Source of the DNA: a virus
Length of the DNA: 64,000 nt
Strand: one strand, 5' to 3'
Virus record (IMG/VR): IMGVR_UViG_3300008262_000018
Span: 57,097 to 121,096 of that record
Part shown: in pieces, positions 5,301 through 60,697 of the stretch
Position numbering within the stretch: the first letter of the stretch is position 1
Layout of the letters: every line of letters starts with the position of its first letter
Made by a program: the position numbers and the translations under genes
The notes under the pieces: generated by a model
Databases searched by the model: none
The model's input: only the letters and a program-made list of their open reading frames with translations
Told to the model about the DNA's origin: nothing

Positions 5301-8300
5301 CGATCCTCCTGCAAATACTATTCCAAACACTGAGAATGGCTCTGATAGATTCTACTATTTTACGGCTAAGCATAATGTTTACAATCGTTACTACTTTTTA
5401 AAAGTGGTAACAGCTGATAATGATGAGTTTAAAATTAGAGACTCAAAGCAGAATCCAGATGATATCAAAGTAGTCTTGATGAAGAGAACTAAAACTGGTG
5501 AAGATCAGTTTAGGTATGACTATGTAGATAAAGATAATAAAATAATTCCTGAAGGATCTGCTACAAAAAATAATATTATATATAGATCTTTAATTGATAT
5601 TAATAATCTTGATATTGATAGAGTTAAAAGAGATTATACAATTGGAGGATTGACAGATGCTGAGATACAAAAAGCAATTGATGAACACATTGCTTTTCAA
5701 AAAGATTTAGCTAAGAGGATAAAAGAAGGTGAGGAAGTATTTTTAAAAGCAGTTTCTACTTCTCCTGGTGTACATACAATAATGTACTCTAATGAGTTTG
5801 ATGAAAAAGGTAATCCAAAACCAGCAGAGCAACCTTTAGAAGGTCGTATTATTGCTCGTGATCCTGACTTTGATGATTTAAGAAGTGCAAACAATCCTGA
5901 AATTAATATTGACTTAAGAGTTGTTACAGCAGATAATGTACCAGCTCAAGGTATTAGAGCAGGTCGTCTTGTTATGCAAGAGTACACTCTTGAGAATGGT
6001 AGAAAGATTTGGGGTGATAATATTTATAGAGTATTTAATAGACAGCTTGATGAAAATGAAAAGGAGAACATATATAATGCTCTTCTTAGACTTTCTGATT
6101 TGTATATTAAAAAATATGGTAAGAAGAATTTCTTTGGTAAGAAAGTAAAAAAATCAACCAAACTTTCAAAAGAAGAAGAGTCTGAGTTAAATCTCATCAC
6201 TGGATATTTAAAAGGTGTTATTAATTGGTCTAAACCAAAGGCTAAAGAAAAGGTTTCTGATAAGAACTTTTGGATAAGCAATGGTTTGCATAGAGGTAGC
6301 ACAGTTGTTCCTTTTGATAGAGCTAGTATTACAAAGAATAAAGAAAAACTTACAAAAGGACTCTACCATAATGTAAACAGTACATATCTAAAGGAAGATA
6401 TGTCTTTTACTACTCTTAAATTTGACAAACTTGGGAAAGCTTCTAAAGATGTTAAATATGATACATATACAGAATACCTTTTAGCAAAAAGAGAAAAAGG
6501 TGCACCACCTGTATACACATCTCTTCCTTTAGCAAATTCTGATATTCCACAAAGAACAAATGCTTATATTAAATGGCAAGAGGTTGGTGTTAAAGAAGAT
6601 GTTGTTGAGGATACAAAGAAGAGAGAAGAGAAAATGGATGCTGCTTCATCAGCTCTTCCAAAAATAGATAGAGAGATCAATGAATTTGTTTCTTTAAAAA
6701 GAAAGTATTTAAAGATTAGAGGTGTCGAGTTTAAATTTACAATATCAAAAGATAGTGTTGTATTTAGTTTTAAAACAGAGAAAGGATATGAACAAAAGAC
6801 TGATCCTATTCCTTTAAGTGAAGTTCCTAAAAGAAGAGATGATTTAATTCAAGTTATTTCAAAAAGAACAGGGTATAAATACGGAGCTACAGCTGCTTTT
6901 CATAAATTAACATTAGAGACATTAGAAAAAGAAAAGAAAAGAAAAGAAGAAGCTAAAAAGAAAGCAGAAGAAGCTGCTAAGAAAAAGCCTAGTGTTTCTA
7001 CAGATGCTAAAGTTAAGATAGAAGCTAAGAAAGCTGAAATACAAAAATTAGAGAAAGAAAAATCTGATTTATTAACAGAAACTAAAACTTCTGAGAAAAG
7101 TGAAATAGATGCCATTCGAGATTTATTAAAAATTGGAAATAAATTTAAAATAGATGGTATAGATGTTACTGTTATTCCTTATGGTACTGGTATGATGATT
7201 TCTGCGGATGGTGTACTTCCAATAAAAGGATATGTTTTTCGTACTAAAAATTTAAACGAAGACGAATTAAATAATCTTACTTATATTTTATATCAAAATA
7301 ACTTTAAAGGAAATAAAAATGTACCTTTAAGTACTTCTGAAATAGATGCTAAAATAAATAAAGCAAAACAAGAACTAGCTGTTTTAGAAGGTGGTGCTAA
7401 ACCTACTGAAGTAACAACAGAAGGTCCTTTCTTTTCTATTGAAGATGCTGTTAGCAATGCTACTATCAAAGATGGTATTGCCACTGCTGTTGTTTCTACA
7501 AAAAATATAACAACTAATGAGGTAGCTGAACTATACAGAGCAGAAGTTAAAATTGTAGGTGGAAATGTACAAGCTGCAAAAAGAGAATTAAGTAAAAAAC
7601 TTCTTGCACAAATTGATACAATAGATGATAACGATATTCCTTTTAGATTAGCAACTGAGCAAGAAGTATCTGAACTTGAAGATTTCGATGAGTATCAGAA
7701 ATTTATGGGAGAAAAACTTCCTCAGATTCCAATTCAAAGAGTTAATAATTTGATTTATGGAAAAGCATTGGGTGCTTTTTTAAAAGGTGGTATTTATATT
7801 TATAATAAAGCAAGTAAGGGTACAGGATATCATGAAGCATTTGAAGCTGTATGGGCTAGTTATCTTACTGATGATGAACAGTTTGAATTAATAAAAGAGT
7901 TTAGACAACGCGAAGGTTCTTTTACAAACCCTTATACAAACATCACTAAACCTTACGCAGAAGCTACTAGATATGATGTAAGAGAGATGTTAGCAGATGA
8001 GTTTGGACCTTATATTGAAAACGAGTCATTTAGTCCTAAAACAGTAGGAGAAAAAACTAAAAACATCCTTCAAAAACTTTGGGAGTTTATTAAATCTATA
8101 TTTGGTCTTAGCAAAAAAGATAGAAAAGATTTTGATACTTATGTTAATAAGATATTTAAGAAAATTTCTAAAGGAGGATATAAGAATGCTAAACCTATTA
8201 GAGATGTAATGACGTTAGCTCCTTCTTTTAAAGTAGCTCCTGGTTTAAATCAACAACAAACCTTAGATGCTTTAGAAGGAATTAACTTTTATTTCTTTAA

Positions 8301-11300
8301 GGAACTCTTCTTAAGAGGGAACACTGTAGATAGTATTATTAGAGGTTTAGATAAGAATGAGATTAACAAGCTTTTAACAAATACTTTTGATACTGCTTTT
8401 AATCAAGTTGTGGCTAATGCCAATGTTGTAAATACAGGTGTTGCTAAAATAGTTAGTGAGCAAAAGAAAGCTCTTTATGATATTTTTAAAGCTAACTTAA
8501 AAAGATATGGAGTTCGTTTTTTTGAGTTAGAAGAACAAGATGAAAGTAAAACAAATGACCCTCTTGGTATTAGAGACTCTATTACCATAGATCCTAGAAA
8601 AACAACCTCTGTAAACGTTTCGTTGCTATTGCTTTCATTGCCAGATATAAGAACTATAAATGGTAAACTAAAACATCAGTTGAATGACTTAGGTCAACCA
8701 ACGCTTGTTGATTCATCAAGAGTGCATACACTTCTTCTAAACGAATTAAGTAATGTATCTTTTATAGTAAAGGAAGATGGTACTAAGGTGAATGCTTTTG
8801 ATCAAATGATTGAAAAGCTTGATGAAAAGTACATGAATACTAAACTGGTTGATGGTAAGCTTGTAAAAGATGGTACATATAGAGAAGGCTATCAATGGGT
8901 TAATAGTTTAAAAATTCGTTTAAAATATCAAGACTTAAAAGGTAATCGTATACAAACAAATGAACTTGATATAGATGATATTAGTCTTCGCGTAGCATTT
9001 ATTAAGAGTTTTTCTAATACTAAGTTTATCCCTGATAAAATGATTGTAGAGAGCGATGGCTTTATCTACAACTTTAATCCTTTGATTAATGTTAATGAGG
9101 ATAGAATTAGAAAAGATTGGGCTAATAATATCAAAAAACAATTAATTTCTAATAAGTCTAAACTATTTAAGTTACAGAAATCTGGTAGATATACTGTCAA
9201 CCAAGCATCTGATGATTACTTTATGCTTGTTGATTACAAAGATAGTGTTGGATTGGAACCTGTCTTAGAAGGATTTAGAAAACTAGGAATAGAATTTTCA
9301 GCTACAACCACTGAACTTAGCAGATACGAAACAACTTTAAGAGAACAATATATTCAAATAGTTAATCGATTTGAAGATAAGACTATTACAGACTTAGAAG
9401 ACTTGTTTGCAAAAGATGTAATTGGTGGTCGTATAGATACACTAATTGGAATAGAGTCTAAGTTTGAAGGAGAAGATAATGTATTAAGCTATTACAATGC
9501 TGATGGGGAAATACAATACTCAGTGGGTATACCTTCTCTCTTTGGTACAACAATTAATATATTAAATAAAGTTAATTCGCTTGAAGAACTTGTTACAACA
9601 GCACCTTGGTTAGGGTTTATTAATAATGAAGGTAAAGCAGAACTCCACCCCTACCAAACTAACTCTATGCTTTTGAAACCTGGTGGATTGTTGTTTAATA
9701 AAGATGGTAAAAGAAAAAGAGCTTCTAAAGATCAAGAGCTCACTTATCGTGTAATTTCAGGTACAGGTGTTTCTAACGTAGATGGTACAAATACTGCTAA
9801 GCTTCAGTTTCCTGAACGTATAGCACTAAAGATTCACTATCTGCTTAATAACGTAACCTTTACACTAATCAACTCTGATAAGAGTACAGAGTATGGAATA
9901 TCTCTACCTAGTAAGTTATTTGTCGAAACTTCTGATGTAGATAATCTTCTTAATGATGAAGATCAAAAAATAACTAACATCTATATAGATCAGCTTAAAG
10001 ATGAACTTGCAGCTGCTGTTTTCCAAAAGACTGATCCTCAGAACATTCAATATTATAGCAAAGGTGTATTTGATCTTGGTCATTTTAGAGATATACTATC
10101 TGATAAAGTGAAAGATAAGTTTAAGAAAAACATATTAGATGAAGAGTCTAAAGACTTTGGCGACTATGAAAAGTTTGTAGAGGATAACCTTAAGGATATT
10201 GAGAAAGATATTAGAACTTATTTAAAAGCTAAGGTAGAAGAGACATATAACTTCTTATTAGAAAATGATATATTCTACAAACCAGGATCTAGAGGTTTCT
10301 GGACTGATTTAAAAATTACAGATGCTATTGATAATGAGCTTTTAAATAAAGTGTTGTCAATAGAGCCTAAGACTGTTAAAGACAGGGATGGATATACTAG
10401 CGATGACATTATGAAAATTGCTGGTTATCTAGCTATTAATGAAGAGATATCAGTTACTGAGCAACACAAGATTGTATATGGTCATCCTGCTATGTATAAA
10501 GATTTGCCAAAACGTGCAAATGGTCCCACTTCTACAAAAGAAGCATTAGTTGAAGATAGTGATATTGTTTCTTGGCAAGATAATAATATGCCAAGGCATG
10601 ATCTTAAAAAGAGATCAGAAGATGTAAATCAAACTATCAATGTGGTATCTTATAAAGACATGGATGTTGTTAGTATCTTTTATAAGGAAATAGCTGAAAA
10701 CATATATAAAGATCTTCGTAATGCAGGTCTTTCACAAGAAGAAGCTGAGAAGAAAGTGGGGGCTAGATTTGATGAATCTAACAATATAACTGGTTTTATA
10801 ATTAAGAATGGAGAATATACAGGATCTGTAAGTGCATATCTTAAACTAACTGAATCTGATGCGATGGCAATGGGTATGCCTGATGCTATTAGAGATTTGC
10901 TATTTGCAAGTAGTAAGTTTACTGATGAGAGAGCTGCTCAATGGGATTATGAAATTGCATATGAAAAGCTAGTTAGATCAGGAACTATAAAAGCAAAAGA
11001 TGGAACTACTATTAAAAAATCAGATCCTAGATATAGAAAGTTTTCAAAAGCTGAATTAGCAGATGCTCTTGAAATATATAAAGTTGGAGATCCAGGATAT
11101 ATATTTGAAGTACTTAAGCCTCAATACTTTGGATATGGAGTCACTAAAAATATATCACATCCTGTCTTTTTGAAACACGCTGTTCAACCTAAGTTTTACA
11201 GACATGTTGAAGGAACACAATTTGAAAAGCTGTATATAGCTGCGCAAAGTAATAAAATAGATATTATTGGATTTGAGTCTGGTGAAAAAGTTGGTAATGT

Positions 11301-14300
11301 CACTACAGAATCAGGTGACTTTGTTCCTGTTTACAATGATCTAGGTGGTACTAATATAGATGAGACTGATGGTAAATACGCTTTTCCTGAAGACTTACCT
11401 ATTCAAACTTTGTATAGTAGGTTCTATGGTATACAAGTGGAGCAAAGTAATAAACCTAAGAAGTCAGTTGTAAGAGGTACACAGGTGACTAAAATCATTA
11501 TGACAAACTTCTATGAAAATGGATTACCAATTAATGAAAGTATTGGAACATTAATAGAAGACTATAATAGCACAATTGATTCTATTATAAAATTAGGAAA
11601 AGAAAAACTTTTAAAAGATCTTGGTTTAGAAAGAGATGGTAAAGATTATAAAACAAAGGATCTTTCTAAGCTTATTGAAATTTTAAGAGCAGAAGCTGAA
11701 TCTCGTGATCTACCAGATAATATCATAGATGCAATTGATTATATAGAAGATATAGAAAATGAAGAGCAAAGCCTTCTCTATTCTTTTGATACAATTATAA
11801 CTAGAGAGAAAATTGATAATATTCTAAACTCAATAGTTGATTCAAGAGTGATTTCTGAAAAGATGAACGGTAAATCATCTCCACAGGTGGCTTCTACGCT
11901 GTATGAAAGTAATCCTCGCAGCTTTATGTATGTTAAAGATGGAGTGTATACACAGCTAAGCAAGTCTGCTCTTAAAACTTTAACAGAAGAAGAGCGCAAG
12001 AGCATTAAAATGACTTCATCAGATTTGAAGTTTTATCGTAAAGGAAAAGATGGTAAAACTTTGAGTATGGAAGTTTATATAGCATGGCCTTTTGGAGATC
12101 AAGTTACACCTGAGCAAATGGGGCTAAAGTTAGAAAATGGTATTTATAAGGTGCCAGAAGGTGCTCTTCGTAACATGGATAAAGAAATTTTAAGAATTAT
12201 TGGCTTCCGTATTCCTACACAGGCTCCTAACTCAATTGAAAGTATTATTATCAAAGGATTTACACCAGCAACAAATGGTGATATGATTGTTGTACCATCA
12301 GAAATAGTTGGTAAATCAGGATCTGACTTTGATATTGATAAACTCAATCTTTACATGCCTAATGTTGAAATAGACGTTGATGGTAATAAATATTATGGAG
12401 AAACTGAGTTTAATGATTTTCTTTATAATAATCTTGTTAAAAGAGGACTATCTGCTGATAAAGCTAAACAAGTAATTGACACATTTACTAAAGATGACTA
12501 TGTACAACTTAATCGTACAACCTTTGCAGAAGCAGGTAAGTATCAAAAGAATGCAGAACTTAGCTTAAATGATATCTCTAAAAGAATGCAAGCTTCTGAT
12601 CAAACATTAGAATATATTAAAAAAGGTATACAAGCTTATAACTTAAATTCTAAAAACAGAAAATATATTAGATATATTCCTGAAGATACTACCACTAAAC
12701 AAGGTCTTCAGAATAGACTTATAAGAATAATGTCTGATCTTATTCTTTCTCCTGAAAACTATGTACAGCTTGTAACCCCTAATAGTACAGCTACATTAAA
12801 AGGATTGGCTAATAGAATGTCTAGACTTGAAGCAATAGCTAATCCAGATAGCTTAAAACAAAATGAAAAATCATTAACGTATTTAAGAAGTTTTATTGGT
12901 ACAACAAAAACAAGGGAGAGATATCTTACAGCTAAACAAATGGTGGGTATTTCAGCATTACATAGTACATTTCATGCTATGGCTCAAAAAGTTGGATTAA
13001 AAGTTAAGGCTGAATATAAAACTAAAAACATAGGATATTTAATTCCTAAAGAAGAAGAAACTACAGGTAAAGGACGTAATAAAACTACCACTCTTAAAGC
13101 TAAAACTGTAGAACCTATTGTAATTAAACTTCCTCATCATCCTGCTGATGAAAAAACTGGGTTGTTTAGTATAGGCTATAAAAAAGCTGTTGATGGTCAA
13201 GATATTTCTGAAATGAATTCAGAATCTACATCAGGATTTGTTGATGGTGCAAAAGATCCATTTGTATTTGATTTGAAGCTATCAATGAATACAGCATCTA
13301 CATGGTTCTACCTTAGACACATGGGTGTCCCTGAATCATATATAGCAGCGTTATTTAGCCAGCCTATTATTGTAGATTATTTTAAAAAGTTTGCAAAGAA
13401 CAGATCTAACTTTAAAAAACAGAATGGAGAGAATCTTTCTAGAGAAGAGCTTATGTTTGAAGCAGTGGCTCCCTACTATGATAAGGTTGTAAAAGGTGGA
13501 TCATTGTTAGCAACGCTTAATTCAATAGAAGAATCTACATTTAATGTTTCTTTTAAAAATCAAAGAAAGAACGATATATTAAAACAACTAGATGTAATAT
13601 ATAATACATTTGACGAGTTTACACTTTCAGAATTAGAAGAAGCTATTACATTAGGTGAAAAGGCTGATCCTAAACTTCAGATTGCAGCGCTATTAAGTTA
13701 CTTAAGATATAATGCTCAAGCTAGTTATTTAAGTAGTTTTATAGCTGGAATTGGTTTTGATACAGGAAAAACAGCAACTACACAGGAAGCTATCTTACAG
13801 ATGTCTAAATGGAAAAAAGCAGAGAAACAAGAGTTTATTAATAATCCAAATGCAATAATGGATGAAACATTTTTAGGACAACTTAAAGCACAAAAAGAAG
13901 ATGTCTTTAATATGTTTAGACGTTTCTTTATTACGTTGTCTCCAGATATTCTAAATGTATTTCAAAAACTTTATGATAAACTTGATGATCCTGATACATT
14001 CTTGATGAGAGATGATGCTTATAATTTAATTACAAGATATCAAAATCACGTATTAGGATATATTCTCCACACTACGCCATTCAAAACATTTGATGGCACA
14101 GAAAAAACACTGAATCAAATGTATGAGGATATGTTCAAGGGAGATAATTCTATAGCAAAACGTTTGTTAGATTTAAAGAATTCTAAAGACGACACTATAT
14201 CAGAAAATTTATTTATAAAAGAATTAATGCCATTATTAACAAATAACGATATTAAAACAAATAATATATCCTTATTTAGAAATAGACTTGATACTTTTGA

Positions 14301-15174
14301 AATAAATAGTATTGTAGAAGCATTAAAAGAATTGGATGAACATGCAGATGCAATTGCTGATAACAACCTCAAAAAAGATATCAACGATATCATGTTATTT
14401 AGTATCTTGCAATCTGGTTTACAGAATAGTAATATAGATTATAGAAAGGTGCTTAGCATTGAGCTTTATTCTGAAACATTAAAGAATATATTTGATTCTT
14501 TCAAAAACAATAATGTAACGTTAGATGCTGATCAAGTTTGGAGAACATTCCATCAAAACAACTGGAGTAACCGAGGTATAGTGAGTAAAGCGCCAGCTTG
14601 GTTAAAAGTAAAAGATGGTGGATTGATTACAGTTGGGTCAAGTAGTGCAATGGCTAAGGTTGATTACTTTGTTAAGTATGTAAAGAAAGATAATTTTACT
14701 AAAGAAGAGTTTAAGCAGTTACAGAAAGAAAAAAGAGCGTATGAAGCATTTGCACCTGTATTATATGAAAATACACAAGCTGTTGATGATAAAGGAAGAA
14801 TAGTGTTTATGCCTATTAATAAACTTGGAGATGGTCCTAGATTCTTAGAAATATACACTGATCCTGATACAGAATCAATACTAGAAGAAAACGACCATAA
14901 GAAATTAACAATTAATAAAAAGTCAAAAATGACACCTGGAGGTGGATGGTTTAAAGTGAGTGATATGCTTAATTCTGTTAAAGAGCAAAAAGATATGAAC
15001 ACTCTTGAATCTGAAGAAACAGAACAAGAAGGGATCAAAGAAGATGAATTCTTTAAACCAGCAGGTGATATTAAAACATTTGCAGATCTTCAAGCAGAAG
15101 CTGTAAGACAATTTAAAGAGCAACAGAAAAAGAAAAAGGACGATGAAGGTAATCCTTTCAAATGTAAAAAATAA
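2347..15174 (+). CDS. Giant crAss-like virion DNA-dependent RNA polymerase (single polypeptide)
   Basis: This 4275-aa protein is a multi-subunit-type RNA polymerase fused into one chain. The catalytic signature GSDFDIDKL is at 12319-12345 (Asp 3327, 3329 and 3331), the metal-binding DxDxD motif of the second double-psi barrel in crAss-like and YonO-type polymerases. Upstream is the matching segment GFRIPTQAPNS, and downstream is SGFVDGAKDPFVFDL, both typical of crAss-like enzymes. The N-terminal 300 residues hold hydrophobic stretches that may help membrane passage. A segment near residue 1820 reads YHEAFEAVW, like a decayed HExxH metalloprotease motif, followed by EMLADEF. Related phages often split this function over several proteins; here it is one ORF. 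The enzyme is presumably packaged, ejected, and transcribes early genes. Confidence 0.92.
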   Translation: MAENKLFEGMQLDQKLGMDEFEQQLDLEGLDKKPFEVTADTSLPRRIKTEEQALNALNDAFVRGTQATRGGSSGLYNPKIVPYNSVKKYLDMPYGYNYGLDNDNFYANQEHWLKTAGKGIMRFGIGTVAKVGEGAGFLLGLSNPLNWDGDVISNAADNGISQLFGALDQKTKEDWFPLYQEAEDREKGFWNRLFTDGDFWAGDIADGFAFAVSVFVPGMALSKLGLGAKVLRATAPLRIGTGIAEDAVINAGKVQNYLTRGAQIAKGIDKFTAWGTMTASESLFEAAEIKRNIINSLTQDEFGNYVINKETGRPYTEEEKKRIAGQNAQGAFLLNTALLGMTNIIQLRWLGKIFNEGAELSTKRIIGTKNLTDVLKLPSASGKISKFLDGKLGAFFSGLPTAIASEGFVEENFQLAIQRLTESYGKKGKVRDYLNVKELLGQVGSQTLKAILGDDPEASTSIGLGGLIGTSMSGVSNVMNFSREKVNNENLVTSYNNAQQNWLKFGNIYKTQTVETTDDSGNIVKTEKIVFDPQGRPEEDVEKVAGVLTGYRAVTSMLDESEKLKDGLIKTTMRDMAFAEFVKAHINAGIESNLLEKLDDVIKASPEEVVKLGFILDDNVADQVNRYKNLASKIMKQDKLINRDILFDNTPEDLARKNTLIDLASKQAVYENLRDEISKSQTELKNELIDTKNTSLSDGLVDQLNDLVYRINAQEEKLNSLKKTGEQSFAYTMANDVLNDLKSDLNDLLKNNELSVKDIKKGKDGFYKYEKKRRNRPGIVDQYNKKSKVKSELENYIDELGYEWAKYADAINGKDNFLKTYNEEVIEPLNNDLTKKEEVEKELASRPKVASATIKDSEGNDVDISFSEKDVYTRVNPTTKKTEKIQVESIDLEKGMVIVIAPNGTSITAPIKDFSQVLFNEQWKLEKVKEKPKAEPKEGQDPSETEEGLFTEIEDGKLTAEEEKYAQRPKFQEVGFGKTFGRQFNDPPANTIPNTENGSDRFYYFTAKHNVYNRYYFLKVVTADNDEFKIRDSKQNPDDIKVVLMKRTKTGEDQFRYDYVDKDNKIIPEGSATKNNIIYRSLIDINNLDIDRVKRDYTIGGLTDAEIQKAIDEHIAFQKDLAKRIKEGEEVFLKAVSTSPGVHTIMYSNEFDEKGNPKPAEQPLEGRIIARDPDFDDLRSANNPEINIDLRVVTADNVPAQGIRAGRLVMQEYTLENGRKIWGDNIYRVFNRQLDENEKENIYNALLRLSDLYIKKYGKKNFFGKKVKKSTKLSKEEESELNLITGYLKGVINWSKPKAKEKVSDKNFWISNGLHRGSTVVPFDRASITKNKEKLTKGLYHNVNSTYLKEDMSFTTLKFDKLGKASKDVKYDTYTEYLLAKREKGAPPVYTSLPLANSDIPQRTNAYIKWQEVGVKEDVVEDTKKREEKMDAASSALPKIDREINEFVSLKRKYLKIRGVEFKFTISKDSVVFSFKTEKGYEQKTDPIPLSEVPKRRDDLIQVISKRTGYKYGATAAFHKLTLETLEKEKKRKEEAKKKAEEAAKKKPSVSTDAKVKIEAKKAEIQKLEKEKSDLLTETKTSEKSEIDAIRDLLKIGNKFKIDGIDVTVIPYGTGMMISADGVLPIKGYVFRTKNLNEDELNNLTYILYQNNFKGNKNVPLSTSEIDAKINKAKQELAVLEGGAKPTEVTTEGPFFSIEDAVSNATIKDGIATAVVSTKNITTNEVAELYRAEVKIVGGNVQAAKRELSKKLLAQIDTIDDNDIPFRLATEQEVSELEDFDEYQKFMGEKLPQIPIQRVNNLIYGKALGAFLKGGIYIYNKASKGTGYHEAFEAVWASYLTDDEQFELIKEFRQREGSFTNPYTNITKPYAEATRYDVREMLADEFGPYIENESFSPKTVGEKTKNILQKLWEFIKSIFGLSKKDRKDFDTYVNKIFKKISKGGYKNAKPIRDVMTLAPSFKVAPGLNQQQTLDALEGINFYFFKELFLRGNTVDSIIRGLDKNEINKLLTNTFDTAFNQVVANANVVNTGVAKIVSEQKKALYDIFKANLKRYGVRFFELEEQDESKTNDPLGIRDSITIDPRKTTSVNVSLLLLSLPDIRTINGKLKHQLNDLGQPTLVDSSRVHTLLLNELSNVSFIVKEDGTKVNAFDQMIEKLDEKYMNTKLVDGKLVKDGTYREGYQWVNSLKIRLKYQDLKGNRIQTNELDIDDISLRVAFIKSFSNTKFIPDKMIVESDGFIYNFNPLINVNEDRIRKDWANNIKKQLISNKSKLFKLQKSGRYTVNQASDDYFMLVDYKDSVGLEPVLEGFRKLGIEFSATTTELSRYETTLREQYIQIVNRFEDKTITDLEDLFAKDVIGGRIDTLIGIESKFEGEDNVLSYYNADGEIQYSVGIPSLFGTTINILNKVNSLEELVTTAPWLGFINNEGKAELHPYQTNSMLLKPGGLLFNKDGKRKRASKDQELTYRVISGTGVSNVDGTNTAKLQFPERIALKIHYLLNNVTFTLINSDKSTEYGISLPSKLFVETSDVDNLLNDEDQKITNIYIDQLKDELAAAVFQKTDPQNIQYYSKGVFDLGHFRDILSDKVKDKFKKNILDEESKDFGDYEKFVEDNLKDIEKDIRTYLKAKVEETYNFLLENDIFYKPGSRGFWTDLKITDAIDNELLNKVLSIEPKTVKDRDGYTSDDIMKIAGYLAINEEISVTEQHKIVYGHPAMYKDLPKRANGPTSTKEALVEDSDIVSWQDNNMPRHDLKKRSEDVNQTINVVSYKDMDVVSIFYKEIAENIYKDLRNAGLSQEEAEKKVGARFDESNNITGFIIKNGEYTGSVSAYLKLTESDAMAMGMPDAIRDLLFASSKFTDERAAQWDYEIAYEKLVRSGTIKAKDGTTIKKSDPRYRKFSKAELADALEIYKVGDPGYIFEVLKPQYFGYGVTKNISHPVFLKHAVQPKFYRHVEGTQFEKLYIAAQSNKIDIIGFESGEKVGNVTTESGDFVPVYNDLGGTNIDETDGKYAFPEDLPIQTLYSRFYGIQVEQSNKPKKSVVRGTQVTKIIMTNFYENGLPINESIGTLIEDYNSTIDSIIKLGKEKLLKDLGLERDGKDYKTKDLSKLIEILRAEAESRDLPDNIIDAIDYIEDIENEEQSLLYSFDTIITREKIDNILNSIVDSRVISEKMNGKSSPQVASTLYESNPRSFMYVKDGVYTQLSKSALKTLTEEERKSIKMTSSDLKFYRKGKDGKTLSMEVYIAWPFGDQVTPEQMGLKLENGIYKVPEGALRNMDKEILRIIGFRIPTQAPNSIESIIIKGFTPATNGDMIVVPSEIVGKSGSDFDIDKLNLYMPNVEIDVDGNKYYGETEFNDFLYNNLVKRGLSADKAKQVIDTFTKDDYVQLNRTTFAEAGKYQKNAELSLNDISKRMQASDQTLEYIKKGIQAYNLNSKNRKYIRYIPEDTTTKQGLQNRLIRIMSDLILSPENYVQLVTPNSTATLKGLANRMSRLEAIANPDSLKQNEKSLTYLRSFIGTTKTRERYLTAKQMVGISALHSTFHAMAQKVGLKVKAEYKTKNIGYLIPKEEETTGKGRNKTTTLKAKTVEPIVIKLPHHPADEKTGLFSIGYKKAVDGQDISEMNSESTSGFVDGAKDPFVFDLKLSMNTASTWFYLRHMGVPESYIAALFSQPIIVDYFKKFAKNRSNFKKQNGENLSREELMFEAVAPYYDKVVKGGSLLATLNSIEESTFNVSFKNQRKNDILKQLDVIYNTFDEFTLSELEEAITLGEKADPKLQIAALLSYLRYNAQASYLSSFIAGIGFDTGKTATTQEAILQMSKWKKAEKQEFINNPNAIMDETFLGQLKAQKEDVFNMFRRFFITLSPDILNVFQKLYDKLDDPDTFLMRDDAYNLITRYQNHVLGYILHTTPFKTFDGTEKTLNQMYEDMFKGDNSIAKRLLDLKNSKDDTISENLFIKELMPLLTNNDIKTNNISLFRNRLDTFEINSIVEALKELDEHADAIADNNLKKDINDIMLFSILQSGLQNSNIDYRKVLSIELYSETLKNIFDSFKNNNVTLDADQVWRTFHQNNWSNRGIVSKAPAWLKVKDGGLITVGSSSAMAKVDYFVKYVKKDNFTKEEFKQLQKEKRAYEAFAPVLYENTQAVDDKGRIVFMPINKLGDGPRFLEIYTDPDTESILEENDHKKLTINKKSKMTPGGGWFKVSDMLNSVKEQKDMNTLESEETEQEGIKEDEFFKPAGDIKTFADLQAEAVRQFKEQQKKKKDDEGNPFKCKK

Positions 15175-52341: not shown

Positions 52342-52945
52342 CATAGTTTACATCATTTAGTTTATTAAATAAACCTGAAAATCTACCACCAACTGCTTTA
52401 TTAGAAGCTAATCCTTCACCAAAATCAGTAGATGGTATAAGATCAATCTTATCTACTAAATCGCCCTCATTGTTTATTTGTTTACCATTCCTTTCAATGT
52501 GATATACTAACACTTCGTTATCGTAGGTTGATTGAATGTTAATAAACACAGCTTCTTCTTTATTTACTTTTTCTTGGGCAATTTTAAAAGCTTCTTCTTG
52601 CGTTTTTGCTTCATCTTTAGAAACTTTTTTAACCCATACCTCTGAAGACCAAGCTAAAGCATATGGAATAAACTTTTTTTTAATTTCTTTAAATATTTTA
52701 GGAAGAACTTCAGCTATCAATTCATCTTTTGAATCACCATCTTCCATAAATGAAGAAGGAATGGGTATGTGAACCATACCCAATGCCTTTTCATCTGTTT
52801 CTTCATCAAGTTTTTCTTTCAATTCACAAAAAATAGTGAAACTTGGATAAAGTTCACCCATTTCTTGAATTGTATCTTTTACAAAATTTACATAATCGTT
52901 TTTAAGCTTATCAATAAGCTCATTTTTATCATTATCCTTCATCAT
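52328..52945 (-). CDS. Hypothetical acidic protein downstream of VWA pair 2
   Basis: A 205-aa protein when started at MMKDNDKNELIDKLKNDYVN (52945), overlapping the VWA stop by 14 nt. It has ALAWSSEVWVKKVSKDEAKT, which resembles the core of small phage or host proteins of unknown function, and an end with NKAVGGRFSGLFNKL. It is co-transcribed with MoxR/VWA pair 2, so it may be a third component or a client. Confidence 0.65.
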   Translation of the reverse strand: MMKDNDKNELIDKLKNDYVNFVKDTIQEMGELYPSFTIFCELKEKLDEETDEKALGMVHIPIPSSFMEDGDSKDELIAEVLPKIFKEIKKKFIPYALAWSSEVWVKKVSKDEAKTQEEAFKIAQEKVNKEEAVFINIQSTYDNEVLVYHIERNGKQINNEGDLVDKIDLIPSTDFGEGLASNKAVGGRFSGLFNKLNDVNYDDVG

Positions 52946-54326
52946 TTTGAAATTCGAGTTTAACAACTTTGTTTACTAAGGTACTTACCAGTTTAGAAGT
53001 ATCTTCTAAATCGTTTATTACAGTGGAGTAGCTGTAAATTTCTTTCACTCTATCATAACGTAAACCAATACCTACAGTTACAAAGCCATCACGTCTACAT
53101 CTTTCTATAACACGTTTCATTTCATCAATAGCTTTTTCTCCACCATAATTATTACCAGATGGTTGACCATCAGATACTGATATAAAAAGAATATTCTCAG
53201 AAGTTTTACTTCTAATACTATCGTATATTTTTTCTATAACAATACCATCATAGTTTTCATTAAAACTTATATGACTTTGTGCTTCAAAAACATCCTCAAA
53301 ATTCTGATTATATGGATCATGATAAATTCTTATTTCTGGATCATCATGAGATTCTTCATCACCACTATGTCCATAAATATAAATTTTATCTTTTGGTATA
53401 ATCTCAGAAAATGTTTTATATAAAATTTTAACTATAGAATGTTGATAGTCAGCATTTGAACTAAGTCTACCTGGTCTATATAAATCCATACTTCCACTTT
53501 CGTCCATAAGAATACAAACAGCAAAAGGCTTAGTAGATATATTCTCTTCCACTTTGTAATAAACTCTTGTATTACCACTATGAACTGTTGCAATTTTTGC
53601 AATATCAAGTTTACCATTGCGAAGATTATCCACTTTATCTGCTTTAGGATCAAAGCTTATATCTAATAAGTTTATAAGTCGTTTAGCAGATGCTTCTTCT
53701 TCAGCACTATACTTAACTTTCTTTTTTTCAATCTTATGCTTAAGCATGTTTACAAAATATGCTTTTTCTTTAAGTTCTTTAGCATCTGCATCAAAAAGAG
53801 TTACACCTGACTTAAATCCCTTATGTTCAAACTTTTTAGTTTCACCAATAATTTCTTCAGCTTTTTCTTTTGCTTCTTTAAGAGTCATACTTTTTGTTGG
53901 TGCCCCACTATCTTCCGATTTACTGTCTTCATCATCTACTATATATTGTATAGTGGCATCTAAAAGTTCCTTTTCATAATGATCAAACAAACTACCTAGT
54001 TCTGTATCAGATTCTTTGATGTAGTTAATAGTTCTTTGTACATCTTCTTTTGCAGGAACTAAACATTTTGATTTTATAGAAGAACCATAAAATAAAGGAA
54101 GTTCTTTTACTTCAGCATTAGCTAATAAATAATCACTTACACCAAACTCTTTAACTTTTAATTGAAATAAGTCTGCAAGTTTAGATTTAGAATTCCATGG
54201 AAGTTTAGATGCAGGATTAAAACTTGTTCTAACATCAAAACTTGTTTTTATTGTGGGAAAGTCATGGAGGATTTTTTCAAATCCCCCATATAATGACCCT
54301 TCCCAGTTTGTACTGGACCAGAACAT
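52932..54326 (-). CDS. VWA-domain protein (pair 2, CobT-like)
   Basis: A 464-aa protein. Its VWA domain starts with the MIDAS motif CILMDESGSMDLYRPG (near residue 272), then YIYGHSGDEESHDD, and SVSDGQPSGNNY with the late Asp. The N-terminal half is charged and has SKSEDSGAPTKSMTLKEAKE, a low-complexity acidic hinge as in CobT. It lies 8 nt after the MoxR/CobS-like gene, so the pair is co-transcribed. Confidence 0.88.
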   Translation of the reverse strand: MFWSSTNWEGSLYGGFEKILHDFPTIKTSFDVRTSFNPASKLPWNSKSKLADLFQLKVKEFGVSDYLLANAEVKELPLFYGSSIKSKCLVPAKEDVQRTINYIKESDTELGSLFDHYEKELLDATIQYIVDDEDSKSEDSGAPTKSMTLKEAKEKAEEIIGETKKFEHKGFKSGVTLFDADAKELKEKAYFVNMLKHKIEKKKVKYSAEEEASAKRLINLLDISFDPKADKVDNLRNGKLDIAKIATVHSGNTRVYYKVEENISTKPFAVCILMDESGSMDLYRPGRLSSNADYQHSIVKILYKTFSEIIPKDKIYIYGHSGDEESHDDPEIRIYHDPYNQNFEDVFEAQSHISFNENYDGIVIEKIYDSIRSKTSENILFISVSDGQPSGNNYGGEKAIDEMKRVIERCRRDGFVTVGIGLRYDRVKEIYSYSTVINDLEDTSKLVSTLVNKVVKLEFQNDEG

Positions 54327-54334
54327 ATTATTTT

Positions 54335-55480
54335 TTATTTAGATTGATCTAATATGTCTTCAATAGCTTTCAAACCTTCTTTGCTACCAAGACCTTTACA
54401 AATTGCATAGAAACTGTCGTAGATAGTAAACCCATCAGATACTAAATCAACAATATTTTTTAGATGTCTAATAGACAAACTAAAATTAACACGAAATTCT
54501 TCGTGAGATTGATTAATACGATTATAAATGTTTACAATAGTTTTCACTTGCTCTGGAGTAAGTGTTTTCCCGTAATTAGTAACAACTTGTTTAGTCATTT
54601 CTTCATTAAGGGGATCAACTTCTATCAAAACAAATCTATCTAATAACGCTCTATCTAACTTATGTGTACCTGTATATTGACTACCCACGTTTGCTGTAGC
54701 AATAAATACACAATCAGGATGTACTTTCACTGGCTCACAATTGTGAAAGCAATATTCCATAGGAAGCTCACGTCTAAAGTCAAGACAAGGAAACAACAAG
54801 TTATTTGCTGTTACCACTGCACGTGAAAGTTCATCCAATAGAATAATACCAGGTTTCTGTATCATCTCAGAAAATCTTGAAGGAATAAACTCACTGATTG
54901 TTTTATCATCCTTTACACTAATTGTATGTGTACCTACAAGAGACATAATAGGATCGCTCATAGTACCCATATCAAATATTGTAAGAGGAAGTCCCAACGA
55001 ATCAGCAATATTCTTTACAAGTTCTGTTTTACCTACACCTGTTGGACCAAGTAACATAGTGCTACGTCTTGCTTTTACATTAGAAAGCAAAATTTGATAT
55101 GTAGCCTTATTCACTTTAAAATATCCACCAAGAGTTACAAATCCTTCAGTGCTTATTTCAGAAACAGGAGTTAATGCTACAGGAGCTTCATATACCATTT
55201 CAAGATCACATTCTGGAGATATAGTTTCTAATGTACGCTTAAGCGTTTTAACATCTCCTGTTTTCATATTTTCTACAATATACCCATGAGTATCAATAAT
55301 TTGTCTCACTTCCTTAATATCTTTTTCTATAAATGATGATATCACTTTAGCAAGAGCAACAGGATTAGTACCCTGATGATTTACTTTTAACCACGCACGT
55401 GTTCTACGAGTGCGTTTTGCATCATCAATGTCACTTGTAATAACTTCAATCATTTCTTCTGGAGCTGTTAATTCTTCCAT
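54335..55480 (-). CDS. MoxR/CobS-like AAA+ ATPase (pair 2)
   Basis: A 381-aa protein. About 140 N-terminal residues of unknown type precede the ATPase: Walker A LLGPTGVGKTELVKN (about 143-157), Walker B IILLDELSRA, sensor 1 FIATANVGSQYTG, arginine finger LDRALLDRF. It resembles the CobS subunit of cobaltochelatase and MoxR chaperones. It is distinct from pair 1 in sequence. It could remodel a host complex with the VWA partner. Confidence 0.9.
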   Translation of the reverse strand: MEELTAPEEMIEVITSDIDDAKRTRRTRAWLKVNHQGTNPVALAKVISSFIEKDIKEVRQIIDTHGYIVENMKTGDVKTLKRTLETISPECDLEMVYEAPVALTPVSEISTEGFVTLGGYFKVNKATYQILLSNVKARRSTMLLGPTGVGKTELVKNIADSLGLPLTIFDMGTMSDPIMSLVGTHTISVKDDKTISEFIPSRFSEMIQKPGIILLDELSRAVVTANNLLFPCLDFRRELPMEYCFHNCEPVKVHPDCVFIATANVGSQYTGTHKLDRALLDRFVLIEVDPLNEEMTKQVVTNYGKTLTPEQVKTIVNIYNRINQSHEEFRVNFSLSIRHLKNIVDLVSDGFTIYDSFYAICKGLGSKEGLKAIEDILDQSK

Positions 55481-57048: not shown

Positions 57049-57387
57049 TTAACTTTTACATTGTTCACAATAAAGAGGTTCTAAATAATCTATTTCTCCT
57101 TTTGAAAATTTGTTTTCTTCTTCATTAAAATCCACACCTGTTTTAACAACTCTTCTACACATAGAACATAACAAAGCAAGATTACCACTATTAAATTTTA
57201 TAATAGCTTTTTGTTTTTCAGGTTCTTCCCAATATCTACAATAGAAATGTTCTCCAAAACTATCTATTAAATCTTTAGGATAGCCTTGTTCAACAAGCCA
57301 CGCTATTGTATCTTTTTGTCTATCTTCAGGAATAGTTTTAGGAAAACCATATAACCATCCTGATGGTGGATCAATCATTGTTGCCAT
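57049..57387 (-). CDS. Small zinc-ribbon phage protein (DPPSGWLYGFPK type)
   Basis: A 112-aa protein. It begins MATMIDPPSGWLYGFPKTIP and has DTIAWLVEQGYP, then a C-terminal CxxC pair ALLCSMCRRVVKTG and PLYCEQCKS, which form a zinc ribbon. The N-terminal sequence is a recurrent small-protein pattern in crAss-like phages. The role is unknown. Confidence 0.72.
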   Translation of the reverse strand: MATMIDPPSGWLYGFPKTIPEDRQKDTIAWLVEQGYPKDLIDSFGEHFYCRYWEEPEKQKAIIKFNSGNLALLCSMCRRVVKTGVDFNEEENKFSKGEIDYLEPLYCEQCKS

Positions 57388-57871: not shown

Positions 57872-57900
57872 ATGTTGCTAACCTATGAAAAACACCTTAG

Positions 57901-58301
57901 TGGAGGTGAGGGGAATCGAACCCCTGTCCAAACAAACAAACAATGCATACAACGTATCACATGCTTAGTCAAGAGATAGCTTGACAACTATGTACTAAAA
58001 GTAAAGATATATCCTTACTTTTTGCACCGTAATAGGAACTAGCACGGTAATGCTCCACCACTTGATTTTATGACTATCAAGAAAACTATTACTATTTTCT
58101 GTTGCCAAGCATAGATGCTCCGTAGGATTAAGCAGCGATTGCTACTTCACCAAAGATAGAAGCTAAGATAGCTTCACCTTCTGCTACACGGTCAACATTA
58201 GATGTGCCGTTTAAAGATTGAATCATTGATTATAGAGGAATAGACCCTTACCTCTGCATGTGTACACACCTTTGATTTGCTGTCAAATCCTTGGCACCCC
58301 C
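57901..58301 (-). ncRNA. ssrA: Phage-encoded transfer-messenger RNA (tmRNA)
   Basis: The 5' end reads GGGGGTGCCAAGGATTTGAC, matching the tmRNA start (GGGGGUGACU-GGUUUCGACAG type), with ATGCAGAGG soon after. The 3' end has a T arm AGGGG-TTCGATT-CCCCT, then CACCTCC, which pairs with GGGGGTG (one G-U) as a 7-bp acceptor stem; the discriminator is A and CCA is not encoded. AGAGG...CCTCT with GGGTC...GATTC fits pseudoknot 1. The tag frame seems to resume at GGC (58206-58208) after TAAAC and runs 26 codons to TAA (58128-58130): it starts GTSNVDRVAEGE and ends FGEVAIAA. tmRNA rescues stalled ribosomes and tags their products for degradation. Confidence 0.92.
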
Positions 58302-58418: not shown

Positions 58419-58518
58419 ATTGTTAACACTAATTCCTCTTCATTGATCGACCAACTTACTAACCAAAACTGTTTTTTAATTGTTTTGAATTGATTGATAA
58501 ATAATTAGTGCTAACAAT
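58419..58518 (-). repeat. 16-bp inverted repeat upstream of the tRNA/tmRNA unit
   Basis: ATTGTTAACACTAATT (58419-58434) and AATTAGTGCTAACAAT (58503-58518) are inverted copies with one mismatch, 68 nt apart. The right copy touches the stop codon of the winged-helix gene, the left copy is 2 nt from the tRNA 5' end. It could be an RNA processing stem or a binding site for the neighbouring regulator. Confidence 0.6.
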
Positions 58519-58793
58519 TATTTTAATATAGTTGTTAATTTCGTCATTCCAGATCCTCTTGACTCTCTCATTATTATACCCTTTTTTTCCAATTTACGCA
58601 AAATCCTAATAACAGTAGATTGTGTGTTTCCGCATTCACTTGCTATTCTATCTACACTCACAAAAAGCGTGTTATCAGACCCTGCATATGTACAAAGATA
58701 AGCATATATTGCTTTCTCTGGTAGAGATATTTCAGGATCTTGAATAACTGTTTTAGAAACTTGTCCAAAACCTGCTTTTAATCTAGAATTCAT
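58518..58793 (-). CDS. Winged helix-turn-helix DNA-binding protein (HTH_36-like)
   Basis: A 91-aa protein: SKTVIQDPEISLPEKAIYAYL, then VSVDRIASECGNTQSTVIRI as the helix-turn-helix and KLEKKGIIMRESRG as wing. This matches the HTH_36 domain found at the N-terminus of replication initiators and in small phage regulators. Only the wing domain is present, so a transcription regulator is likely. It lies directly upstream of the inverted repeat and tRNA/tmRNA. Confidence 0.82.
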   Translation of the reverse strand: MNSRLKAGFGQVSKTVIQDPEISLPEKAIYAYLCTYAGSDNTLFVSVDRIASECGNTQSTVIRILRKLEKKGIIMRESRGSGMTKLTTILK

Positions 58794-58805
58794 TAGATGA
58801 AATTA

Positions 58806-59423
58806 TTACAAAGATAGATCAACTGTATTTGAATGACTAGTTGTAGATGGTTTCATTTCTGTAATAGAAACAAGATCATAACAACCAAACTCACCATTGT
58901 TTGTTGGTCTAAATGAACCAATGCCTATATATTCTCCTGCATATTGCACAATATTTTTTATCATTTCTTCTGTAATTGTGTCAATTTTTACTCTTAAAGT
59001 AAATTCAGCTTCCCAACCTACATTCCATTTAGGACGAACTGTAATAATACGAGCTTTTACATTTCTATTTACAGCTGATCTTTTATCAAAACAATCATAA
59101 TCAGGCATTAAAATTTGTTCTGGTGTTACTAAAAACATACCAGCAACAATATTCTTCATAGATTTAGTGGCGCTTCCCACTTTACCTTTTACCAATTTAC
59201 CTGCTTCAATAAGCGCTGCTTTAATTTGAGAAGAAGGAATAAAACAATGACCATCATTGTTTCTATAACAATGAAACTCAGCTTTAACTTGATCAGGAGT
59301 ATTTAATCCTAATCTTTCAATAATCATGTGTCTTTCTTTTTCCCATTTGTCTAATGTTTGATCGTCCATACGATGTTGCATGTAAGGACTAGATCCTTTA
59401 ATTTTTACTTTGTAAGATTTCAT
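58806..59423 (-). CDS. Cas7/RAMP-like conserved phage protein
   Basis: A 205-aa protein starting MKSYKVKIKGSSPYMQHRMD at 59423 (the frame is open upstream, but that part lies in the array region). It has HCFIPSSQIKAALIEAGKLV, a middle NIVAGMFLVTPEQI, and near the end EYIGIGSFRPTNNGEFGCYD. 'KIKG..P..MHR', 'IPssqIkaAL..AG' and the glycine-rich 'GIGsfRp..nGeFG' recall the fold pattern of Cas7/Csm3-type RAMP proteins. The similarity is from memory of motifs and is not proven. The gene follows the pentanucleotide arrays with a 32-nt leader, so both are probably on one transcript. Confidence 0.7.
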   Translation of the reverse strand: MKSYKVKIKGSSPYMQHRMDDQTLDKWEKERHMIIERLGLNTPDQVKAEFHCYRNNDGHCFIPSSQIKAALIEAGKLVKGKVGSATKSMKNIVAGMFLVTPEQILMPDYDCFDKRSAVNRNVKARIITVRPKWNVGWEAEFTLRVKIDTITEEMIKNIVQYAGEYIGIGSFRPTNNGEFGCYDLVSITEMKPSTTSHSNTVDLSL

Positions 59424-59455: not shown

Positions 59456-59515
59456 ACATTACTAAACAATACTTAACAAAACAATACGCCACCCCACGGC
59501 ACTATACCGCACTCA
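59456..59515 (-). repeat. Pentanucleotide-phased array 3: twelve NNNGT units
   Basis: On the + strand, AC occurs at exact 5-nt steps 12 times (ACATT ACTAA ACAAT ACTTA ... ACCGC ACTCA); on the transcribed strand this is NNNGT. The three variable bases differ from unit to unit. The phase is perfect through 60 nt and ends 32 nt before the ATG of the Cas7-like gene. A 5-nt step cannot be coding. Confidence 0.85.
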
Positions 59516-59570
59516 AAATCTCTGCATTTTTTCAATTGGACTTGTAACCAACTTTGGTAGCATTACCTTT
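59516..59570 (-). ncRNA. Conserved inter-array element B
   Basis: On the - strand it begins after array 2 with AATGCTACCAAAG, has the hairpin GTTGG-TTACAAGT-CCAAT and ends AAAAAATGCAGAGATTTT, directly before array 3. It matches element A in its flanks (AATGC[A/T]ACC, AAAATGCAGAG[G/A]TTTT) and loop (CAAGT), while the stem bases differ but still pair. One ACCTT unit at 59565 is 6 nt out of phase with array 2. Confidence 0.65.
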
Positions 59571-59635
59571 ACTTTACGCTACGTAACACTACGCCACTCG
59601 ACCTCACCTTACGTCACACGACATAACCATACATA
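59571..59635 (-). repeat. Pentanucleotide-phased array 2: thirteen NNNGT units
   Basis: Thirteen consecutive + strand units ACTTT ACGCT ACGTA ... ACCAT ACATA with perfect 5-nt phase. GC content is higher than in the surrounding genome. Variable triplets in transcript order start ATG TAT CGT GAC AAG, with no obvious meaning. Confidence 0.87.
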
Positions 59636-59684
59636 AAACCTCTGCATTTTACAAACAGACTTGGACTGTCTTAGGTTGCATTAC
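59636..59684 (-). ncRNA. Conserved inter-array element A
   Basis: On the - strand: AATGCAACCTAA, hairpin GACAG-TCCAAGT-CTGTT, then GTAAAATGCAGAGGTTTT before array 2. The compensating stem changes relative to element B (GACAG/CTGTT against GTTGG/CCAAT) suggest a selected RNA structure. Confidence 0.65.
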
Positions 59685-59729
59685 ACTATACTTCACCTAA
59701 CACCACAACACCAAACCCCACCACACTAA
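59685..59729 (-). repeat. Pentanucleotide-phased array 1: nine NNNGT units
   Basis: Nine consecutive + strand units ACTAT ACTTC ACCTA ACACC ACAAC ACCAA ACCCC ACCAC ACTAA, phase perfect. Transcription order places it first, 9 nt after the terminator hairpin of the ParB-like gene. It is preceded by ATGC and followed by GTAATGC like the other arrays. Confidence 0.85.
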
Positions 59730-59738
59730 GCATAAAAA

Positions 59739-59756
59739 GGGGAGATTTCTCTCCCC
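59739..59756 (-). terminator. Terminator of the ParB-like gene
   Basis: A 7-bp stem GGGGAGA / TCTCCCC with a TTTC loop; the - strand has a following TTTTT. It separates the ParB-like gene from the arrays, so the arrays need their own promoter or depend on read-through. Confidence 0.88.
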
Positions 59757-59761
59757 AATTT

Positions 59762-60697
59762 TTATTTAATCTTATTGAAAAACTCTAAAAGTTTACCTTC
59801 TTCTTGTGTAGCAAGGACAAACATATCAGATTTTTTCTTTAACTGTGTAACAAAACGCTCATGATTGTAATCACAACCAACAGAATTCAAAAACTTAACA
59901 TACTCTGAACAAGCATATTTGTTTTCAAATCTATTCATTCTTGGCAACACTTTAAATACATCTGTCATATAGTTTAAGATTTTGAGAGCTTTGCTTTCGT
60001 TATTGATTACAAACTCACCTTTCTTAATTTTCTTAGTAATAGAACTACCACTAGTTGTAACAGATTGATTTGAAAGAATTTGTGCTAAAGTACCAATCTC
60101 AAAATCATATCTTTCAAAATATTGATTAAGTTTTACATAATCTTCTTTTAAAGAAGACCATGCTGTAACATAATCTTGCATAGACCATGACTTTGAGCTA
60201 GCATTTAAAAGAGCAATAGCTTCTACAAGTTCTTGTTTATTCTTAATATCAATAACAACATATGGTATTTCTTCACCTAAACGCATTAAAGCATTAAACT
60301 TATGTTGCCCATCAAGAATGTAATACTGCTTTTTACCATTGATAAAATCAATTTGTGTTACAATAATTGGTTGTAAACAGCCTAATTTATCAATAGATGT
60401 AGCCACTTTTGTTACATGTCCTGGAGCTATAGGACGATTAATACCTGCTAAAAGGGAAAATGCAACTTTTGATAGTTCGTTTAACCATTTAATATTTTTT
60501 AATGGTTGTTTACGAGCATCTCTTACTCTTTTTTTAACACTGCTGGTTTTTTCATTTATGACATCAGCTACATGTTGAGCAAATTTTTTAATTTGTCTTT
60601 TATGAGTGACAGTTAATTCAATATCAGGAGTGAGTGTGTGAATAGAGGCTTTTCTTTTTGTTGTTACTTTTGCTTTTGCAATTGATTTTCTTTTCAT
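59762..60697 (-). CDS. ParB/Srx-fold nuclease-like protein
   Basis: A 311-aa protein with a very basic N-terminus (MKRKSIAKAKVTTKRKAS). The ParB N-terminal fold is seen in NRPIAPGHVTKVATSIDKLG, QPIIVTQ and YYILDGQHKFNALMRLGEEI (ParB box II 'DGxHR'). The C-terminal part is helical, with no clear ParB HTH. Such phage ParB-like proteins may have CTP-dependent DNA clamp, ADP-binding or nuclease activity. It is followed by a terminator. Confidence 0.83.
   Translation of the reverse strand: MKRKSIAKAKVTTKRKASIHTLTPDIELTVTHKRQIKKFAQHVADVINEKTSSVKKRVRDARKQPLKNIKWLNELSKVAFSLLAGINRPIAPGHVTKVATSIDKLGCLQPIIVTQIDFINGKKQYYILDGQHKFNALMRLGEEIPYVVIDIKNKQELVEAIALLNASSKSWSMQDYVTAWSSLKEDYVKLNQYFERYDFEIGTLAQILSNQSVTTSGSSITKKIKKGEFVINNESKALKILNYMTDVFKVLPRMNRFENKYACSEYVKFLNSVGCDYNHERFVTQLKKKSDMFVLATQEEGKLLEFFNKIK

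Follow-up and report, generated by a model that had tools for sequence, protein, structure and literature searches.

The stretch of DNA analysed here, which we call the window, comprises 64,000 nucleotides (nt) of a virus (IMG/VR record IMGVR_UViG_3300008262_000018, positions 57,097 to 121,096) and carries a putative locus of the Viral Interference Programmable Repeat (VIPR) system. A ParB-like gene and a gene for a 205-amino-acid (205-aa) protein, both on the minus strand, are separated by a region that holds three arrays with a period of 5 nt (Table 1). Read on the minus strand, the region has a GT at every fifth nucleotide through 9, 13 and 12 consecutive units (first GT at 59726, 59632 and 59512, respectively), giving three strict NNNGT arrays exactly where the initial annotation of this DNA had placed them. 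The annotation had also described the region as free of genes and the arrays as rich in GC, and both observations were reproduced: GC is 42-48% in the arrays, against 33-37% in the spacers and 29-31% in the flanking genes. An extra in-phase GC unit, TATGC, stands at the 5′ side of array 1 (59730-59734).

Runs of this length are well above chance level. The window has no other period-5 dinucleotide run of 8 units or longer, and when periods 2-12 are considered the sole further run is one of AA (period 6, 8 units). In 3,000 Markov (dinucleotide) simulations of the 305-nt region, with any dinucleotide counted at periods 4-8, the maximum run was 8 units and occurred once. Stop codons show a nominal depletion in just one of the frames, an antisense one (p=0.01 before any correction for six frames), and given this we claim no coding frame through the arrays.

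The gene downstream of the arrays encodes a Vipr, a member of the RAMP family, as judged from two sequence matches and a predicted fold. A profile of the 205-aa family found one convincing sequence in the PDB, the "SUSP1 Vipr protein" (36pp, E=1.2e-16). The 205-aa protein also aligns over nearly its full length with the SUSP1 gene (L035:28474-29061; 24% identity, pairwise E=4e-10), and its AF2 model (pLDDT 76) matches Csm3 and type VII Cas7 chains in Foldseek (E ~2e-6). The label "Cas7-like" that the gene had been given earlier was therefore correct. The family has a conserved GIGS-RP-GEFG loop, and IMG/VR holds 13 relatives of the protein with 45-64% identity. The protein falls in phrog_4652 (PHROG 4652), which is of unknown function, and Pfam and NCBIfam have no family for it.

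VIPR was reported in a bioRxiv preprint in April 2026 (April and June 2026; PMC13142463), which supersedes the initial remark that no element with this pattern had been described. According to the main text of the preprint, the system consists of a phage-encoded Vipr protein, a RAMP with an RRM core and a G-rich loop, and of vrRNAs with 9-16 YNNGG repeats in which GGY is fixed. The NN of each repeat pairs with DNA, and one target base is skipped per repeat. Vipr complexes repress transcription, and their natural targets are competing phages and satellites. The consensus is given there as GGY/NN "or a related consensus", vrRNAs of the SUSP1 and P. fulva clades are said to have a structured 3′ tail, and VIPR-type effectors are argued to precede CRISPR (PMC13142463).

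The arrays and this Vipr occur together. GYNNN runs of at least 8 units were found in all 14 IMG/VR records with this Vipr (G000-G013, the window's own record included), and the reversed pattern gave no runs in the same 14 records. Co-occurrence with the Cas7-like gene had been anticipated when the arrays were first noticed, and relatives that keep the gene without arrays had been named as evidence to the contrary; the opposite was observed. In a scan of IMG/VR that was blind to the protein, NNNGT runs of 10 units were found at 80 loci or more. A Vipr homologue lay in the fetched stretch of 35 of 80 loci among the matches listed, and among the matches listed the loci without one were mostly single arrays, often of low complexity. 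Given the Vipr homology, the arrays in all 14 records and their absence for the reversed pattern, we consider it very likely that this is a phage VIPR locus by its protein and array architecture. The early suggestion of a guide-like RNA for the adjoining protein thus gains support from the homology and from co-occurrence in every related record, and that of a DNA element with a helical phase finds none.

The repeats of this clade carry three variable letters. In 34 arrays with 627 units, positions 1-3 are all variable (position 3: A 38, C 15, G 15, T 32%), with G at position 4 in 96% of units and T (87%) or C (13%) at position 5. The clade therefore combines a fixed pair GY with three variable bases, unlike GGY/NN. 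At nearly every other VIPR locus examined, the repeat fixes three bases and varies two (NNGGT, NNCGT, NNTGT, C/T/G-NN-GT). Viprs with NNN repeats are monophyletic (support 97/99), and the neighbouring Viprs mostly have NNGGT. An exception among the other loci examined is L115, a distant Vipr whose repeats also look three-letter. Across L100-L179, the two-letter codes NNGGT, NNCGT, NNTGT, CNNGT, TNNGT and GNNGT are scattered over the Vipr tree, with the fixed base shifting between the first and the third variable slot.

The statistics say that the third base of the repeat (N3) is informative. In the clade, N2-N3 (z 3.3) and N3-next N1 (z 5.1) match the dinucleotide usage seen in related phage DNA; N2-next N1 and N3-next N2 show no such match. 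Among the two-letter groups the match holds for N1-N2 (z 5.2 and 1.7) but not for N2-next N1, which is what the 1-nt skip in the preprint's main text predicts. The neighbour signal of N3 is robust to leaving out any phage and to removing common units. The gain over permuted guides is 34.6 bits with all three bases contiguous and 9.0 bits when N3 is ignored; of the spacings compared, one with a gap between N3 and the next N1 has the poorest score. General G[TC] context could in part be the source of the N3-next N1 signal, which has a correlation of 0.68 with that context in these genomes and of 0.57 with adjacent dinucleotides; a likelihood test favours adjacency (z 5.5 vs 3.2; without common units 4.6 vs 2.3). 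The simplest reading, and the model that we favour, would have three contiguous bases read per 5-nt repeat.

Three arrays in two phages (L016:5800-5915 and L017:5783-6040) have the common units AAN AAN CAN CAN GTN and differ only at the third base. As codons these units spell KNQHV, and their similarity suggests a common target for the arrays of the two phages.

The spacers between the arrays are strongly suggested to be twister elements with predicted self-cleavage just after arrays 1 and 2. Elements A and B each align over full length to Rfam twister-P1 (RF03160; search space 601 nt), and a motif scan finds UAA, CAAG and GAG in register in both, with P2 as UGC/GCA. The hairpin arms of A and B differ by compensatory changes (AGACAG/CUGUUU against AGUUGG/CCAAUU). 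Like twister type P1, the elements have the UAA, the P2 helix, the CAAG loop, the A-rich strand and the GAG core in register; they differ from it in being shorter and AU-rich and in having no P3. Because both spacers match twister-P1 with compensatory stem changes, the precursor probably cuts itself into single guides. Hammerhead-interspersed VIPR arrays are named in the main text of the preprint (PMC13142463, fig. S19), and twister is not named there. The two cases are alike in that a self-cleaving ribozyme class is proposed between guides, and the elements here match twister-P1, not hammerhead.

Guides appear to end in other ways at other loci. On the contig of a Draconibacterium metagenome-assembled genome (L099:5593-5990), three NNNGY arrays each lead into a conserved hairpin similar to a tRNA T-arm (CCCCUGGUUCGAUUCCGGGGG-UGGAACAAAAA), at which Rfam gave no tRNA match; the hairpins may be another means by which guides are ended or processed. 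In L014:4619-4970 and L021:5589-5960, a long period-5 array is split into successive guides by in-phase units of the ATTTT type that recur every 8-14 repeats, much like the "staggered arrays" mentioned in the preprint (PMC13142463).

Among known systems, the type II VIPR of phage SUSP1 resembles this locus in its homologous Vipr (PDB 36pp), its intergenic 5-nt repeats with hypervariable letters beside vipr, its 9-16 repeats per guide and its place in a phage genome. It differs, as far as the main text of the preprint describes it, in having GGY with two variable bases where this locus has GY with three, and its own 3′ tail where this locus has twister-like elements between arrays; no conserved accessory gene was found at the loci of our clade. 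The SUSP1 arrays, when read directly, are NNGGT with some departures. In place of the structured 3′ tail of the preprint, arrays 1 and 2 lead into the twister-like elements and array 3 into T6, and such a tail may be type-specific. With Cas7/Csm3 and crRNA of Class 1 CRISPR, the locus shares the RAMP fold and, as proposed, a periodic protein-RNA geometry and a guide RNA role, but it is without a cas operon and without identical repeats and unique spacers, and its guide information is interleaved with fixed bases. We rejected a CRISPR array: variable triplets are interleaved with fixed GY, the intervening elements are two diverged sequences of about 55 nt, and the neighbours are ParB-like, HTH or unknown.

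In our model, three guide RNAs (vrRNAs) and, behind them, the vipr gene would be carried by a minus-strand precursor RNA. Cleavage by the twister-like elements, just past the ends of arrays 1 and 2, would then divide this precursor so that each RNA keeps one array. By analogy with the published system (PMC13142463), Vipr subunits would sit along each vrRNA, one per 5-nt repeat, gripping the fixed GY. The variable bases would be offered to double-stranded DNA, mostly to keep a competing phage, or another element, from being transcribed. Since three bases per repeat vary in the clade, it is probably a triplet that each subunit presents. Published VIPR, as its main text has it, reads two bases and skips one per repeat; here 5 guide nt would match 3 contiguous target bases. 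In this way Vipr would probably be guided to DNA to silence rival phages.

The arrays might instead regulate the vipr gene, as a TRAP-like binding track or attenuator in its leader, rather than guide Vipr. TRAP also has RNA repeats with a spacing of about 5 nt, and here the regularly spaced units occupy the 5′ leader of a gene whose product belongs to an oligomeric RNA-binding family. However, the units are hypervariable and change from phage to phage, and the arrays of relatives lie both upstream and downstream of vipr. The fixed letters are GY in every unit, not the NAG of (G/U)AG, and the neighbour is of another family than TRAP, a Vipr, which according to the preprint's main text uses such RNAs as guides (PMC13142463). 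We therefore rejected a TRAP binding site, a proposal of the initial annotation, and regard regulation of this kind as highly improbable. A second alternative concerns only the inter-array elements, which could be plain structured handles or processing signals. Several results weigh against ribozymes here. Both scores fall below the Rfam gathering threshold (26.6 bits for element B and 23.2 for element A, vs 67.2), and other loci have different tails. No twister matches were reported in the other VIPR loci scanned, so twister is not clade-wide. The folding energies of both elements are no better than those of shuffles, a result that neither backs nor rules out a twister fold. Plain handles nevertheless seem unlikely, since both elements independently match one ribozyme family over full length with the core motifs in register, and their hairpins have changed in a compensatory manner.

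As to the code, ordinary VIPR decoding would read N1N2 and skip 1 nt, with N3 having lost its conserved G and drifting freely. The same protein family uses a 1-nt skip elsewhere, by the preprint's account (PMC13142463), and guides that are related to one another (three arrays from L016 and L017, and two from L019) retain N1N2 and have most of their changes at N3, a position at which wobble may thus be tolerated. Free drift is at odds with the dependence of N3 on its neighbours whichever phage is left out, with the bits gained by using N3, and with the KNQHV set, in which no N3 difference within a two-fold codon box would change the amino acid. We hold ordinary decoding to be a serious possibility, if a rather doubtful one. 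A triplet could also be read non-contiguously, for example as an N2N3N1′ block followed by one or two skipped bases. Two results count against contiguous reading on this point: leaving 1-2 bases unread between N1 and N2 gives an equally good score, and the N1-N2 adjacency signal is weak in the clade. For non-contiguous reading, the target would have to advance by some number of bases other than 3 with each 5-nt repeat, which departs from the family as described in the preprint, and a gap before the next N1 is clearly worse, though other gaps remain compatible; we think it improbable. In the likelihood comparison, the two-letter controls recovered the 1-nt skip clearly in one group and by less than 2 bits in the other. 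The statistics are a weak judge of spacing, because the permutation test did not single out the published skip in the C/T/G-NN-GT control. A triplet code in this clade (5 guide nt to 3 target nt, none skipped), together with twister ribozymes that release the guides in this phage, is thus a proposal that we make tentatively, as one that may well be right but falls short of probable.

The target searches count against our model of the locus as a whole, as no target was found for any guide in the searches made. With guides taken as NNN or NN and target periods of 2-5, 1 Mb of 14 related phages yielded the arrays themselves only. IMG/VR pattern scans for the arrays of the window, L017 and L019 gave chance-level or no matches, and in two 15-nt IMG/VR scans for the window arrays the mean extension was 6.3/27 and 5.0/21 bases. 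BLAST of the concatenated guides found nothing in INPHARED. Against plasmids it produced two matches of 23 nt, which are at chance level (E=0.6), and against 295 genomes of the L099 order the matches were close to chance and mostly rich in AT. Two tblastn searches of INPHARED with array-derived peptides returned nothing.

If true, triplet reading would supply 50% more target information per repeat and make VIPR a contiguous RNA-guided DNA reader. If VIPR effectors preceded CRISPR, a clade in which each subunit read three bases could mark a transition between gapped and contiguous reading of guides. A twister between guides would be the second ribozyme class in VIPR guide maturation, counting from the main text of the preprint. 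As far as that text shows, both the repeat code and the intervening elements go beyond it; related consensuses are mentioned in the supplement (PMC13142463).

Table 1. Features of the probable VIPR locus in the window, in order of transcription.
Feature	Position	Strand	Remarks
ParB-like gene	59762-60697	-	Upstream of the arrays
Terminator-like hairpin	59739-59756	-	GGGGAGA-GAAA-TCTCCCC, then T5; between the ParB-like gene and array 1
Guide array 1	59685-59729	-	9 NNNGT units; first in transcription order
Twister-P1-like element A	59634-59687	-	RF03160 E=0.017; predicted cut U59683/A59682, just after array 1
Guide array 2	59571-59635	-	13 NNNGT units, then a single slipped unit, AAAGGT
Twister-P1-like element B	59514-59569	-	RF03160 E=0.0019; predicted cut U59565/A59564, just after array 2
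Guide array 3	59456-59515	-	12 NNNGT units, then T6 and the vipr leader
vipr gene	58806-59423	-	205-aa RAMP/Cas7-like protein (P0001); downstream of the arrays
Winged-helix (HTH_36) protein gene	58518-58793	-	Directly downstream of vipr; Pfam HTH_36 4e-13

The HTH_36 gene is a possible candidate for an accessory (vap-like) gene; no homologue of it stands beside vipr in 14 related loci. Near the VIPR locus lies a tmRNA gene (window 57900-58301, minus strand), and a tmRNA is also present in the fetched flank of the relative L020. Elsewhere in the window, adjacent genes at 52932-55480 (minus strand) match a cobaltochelatase CobT-like PHROG and a porphyrin-biosynthesis ATPase PHROG. The interval 2347-15174 (plus strand) is taken up by one open reading frame of 4,275 aa, followed by one of 1,977 aa.
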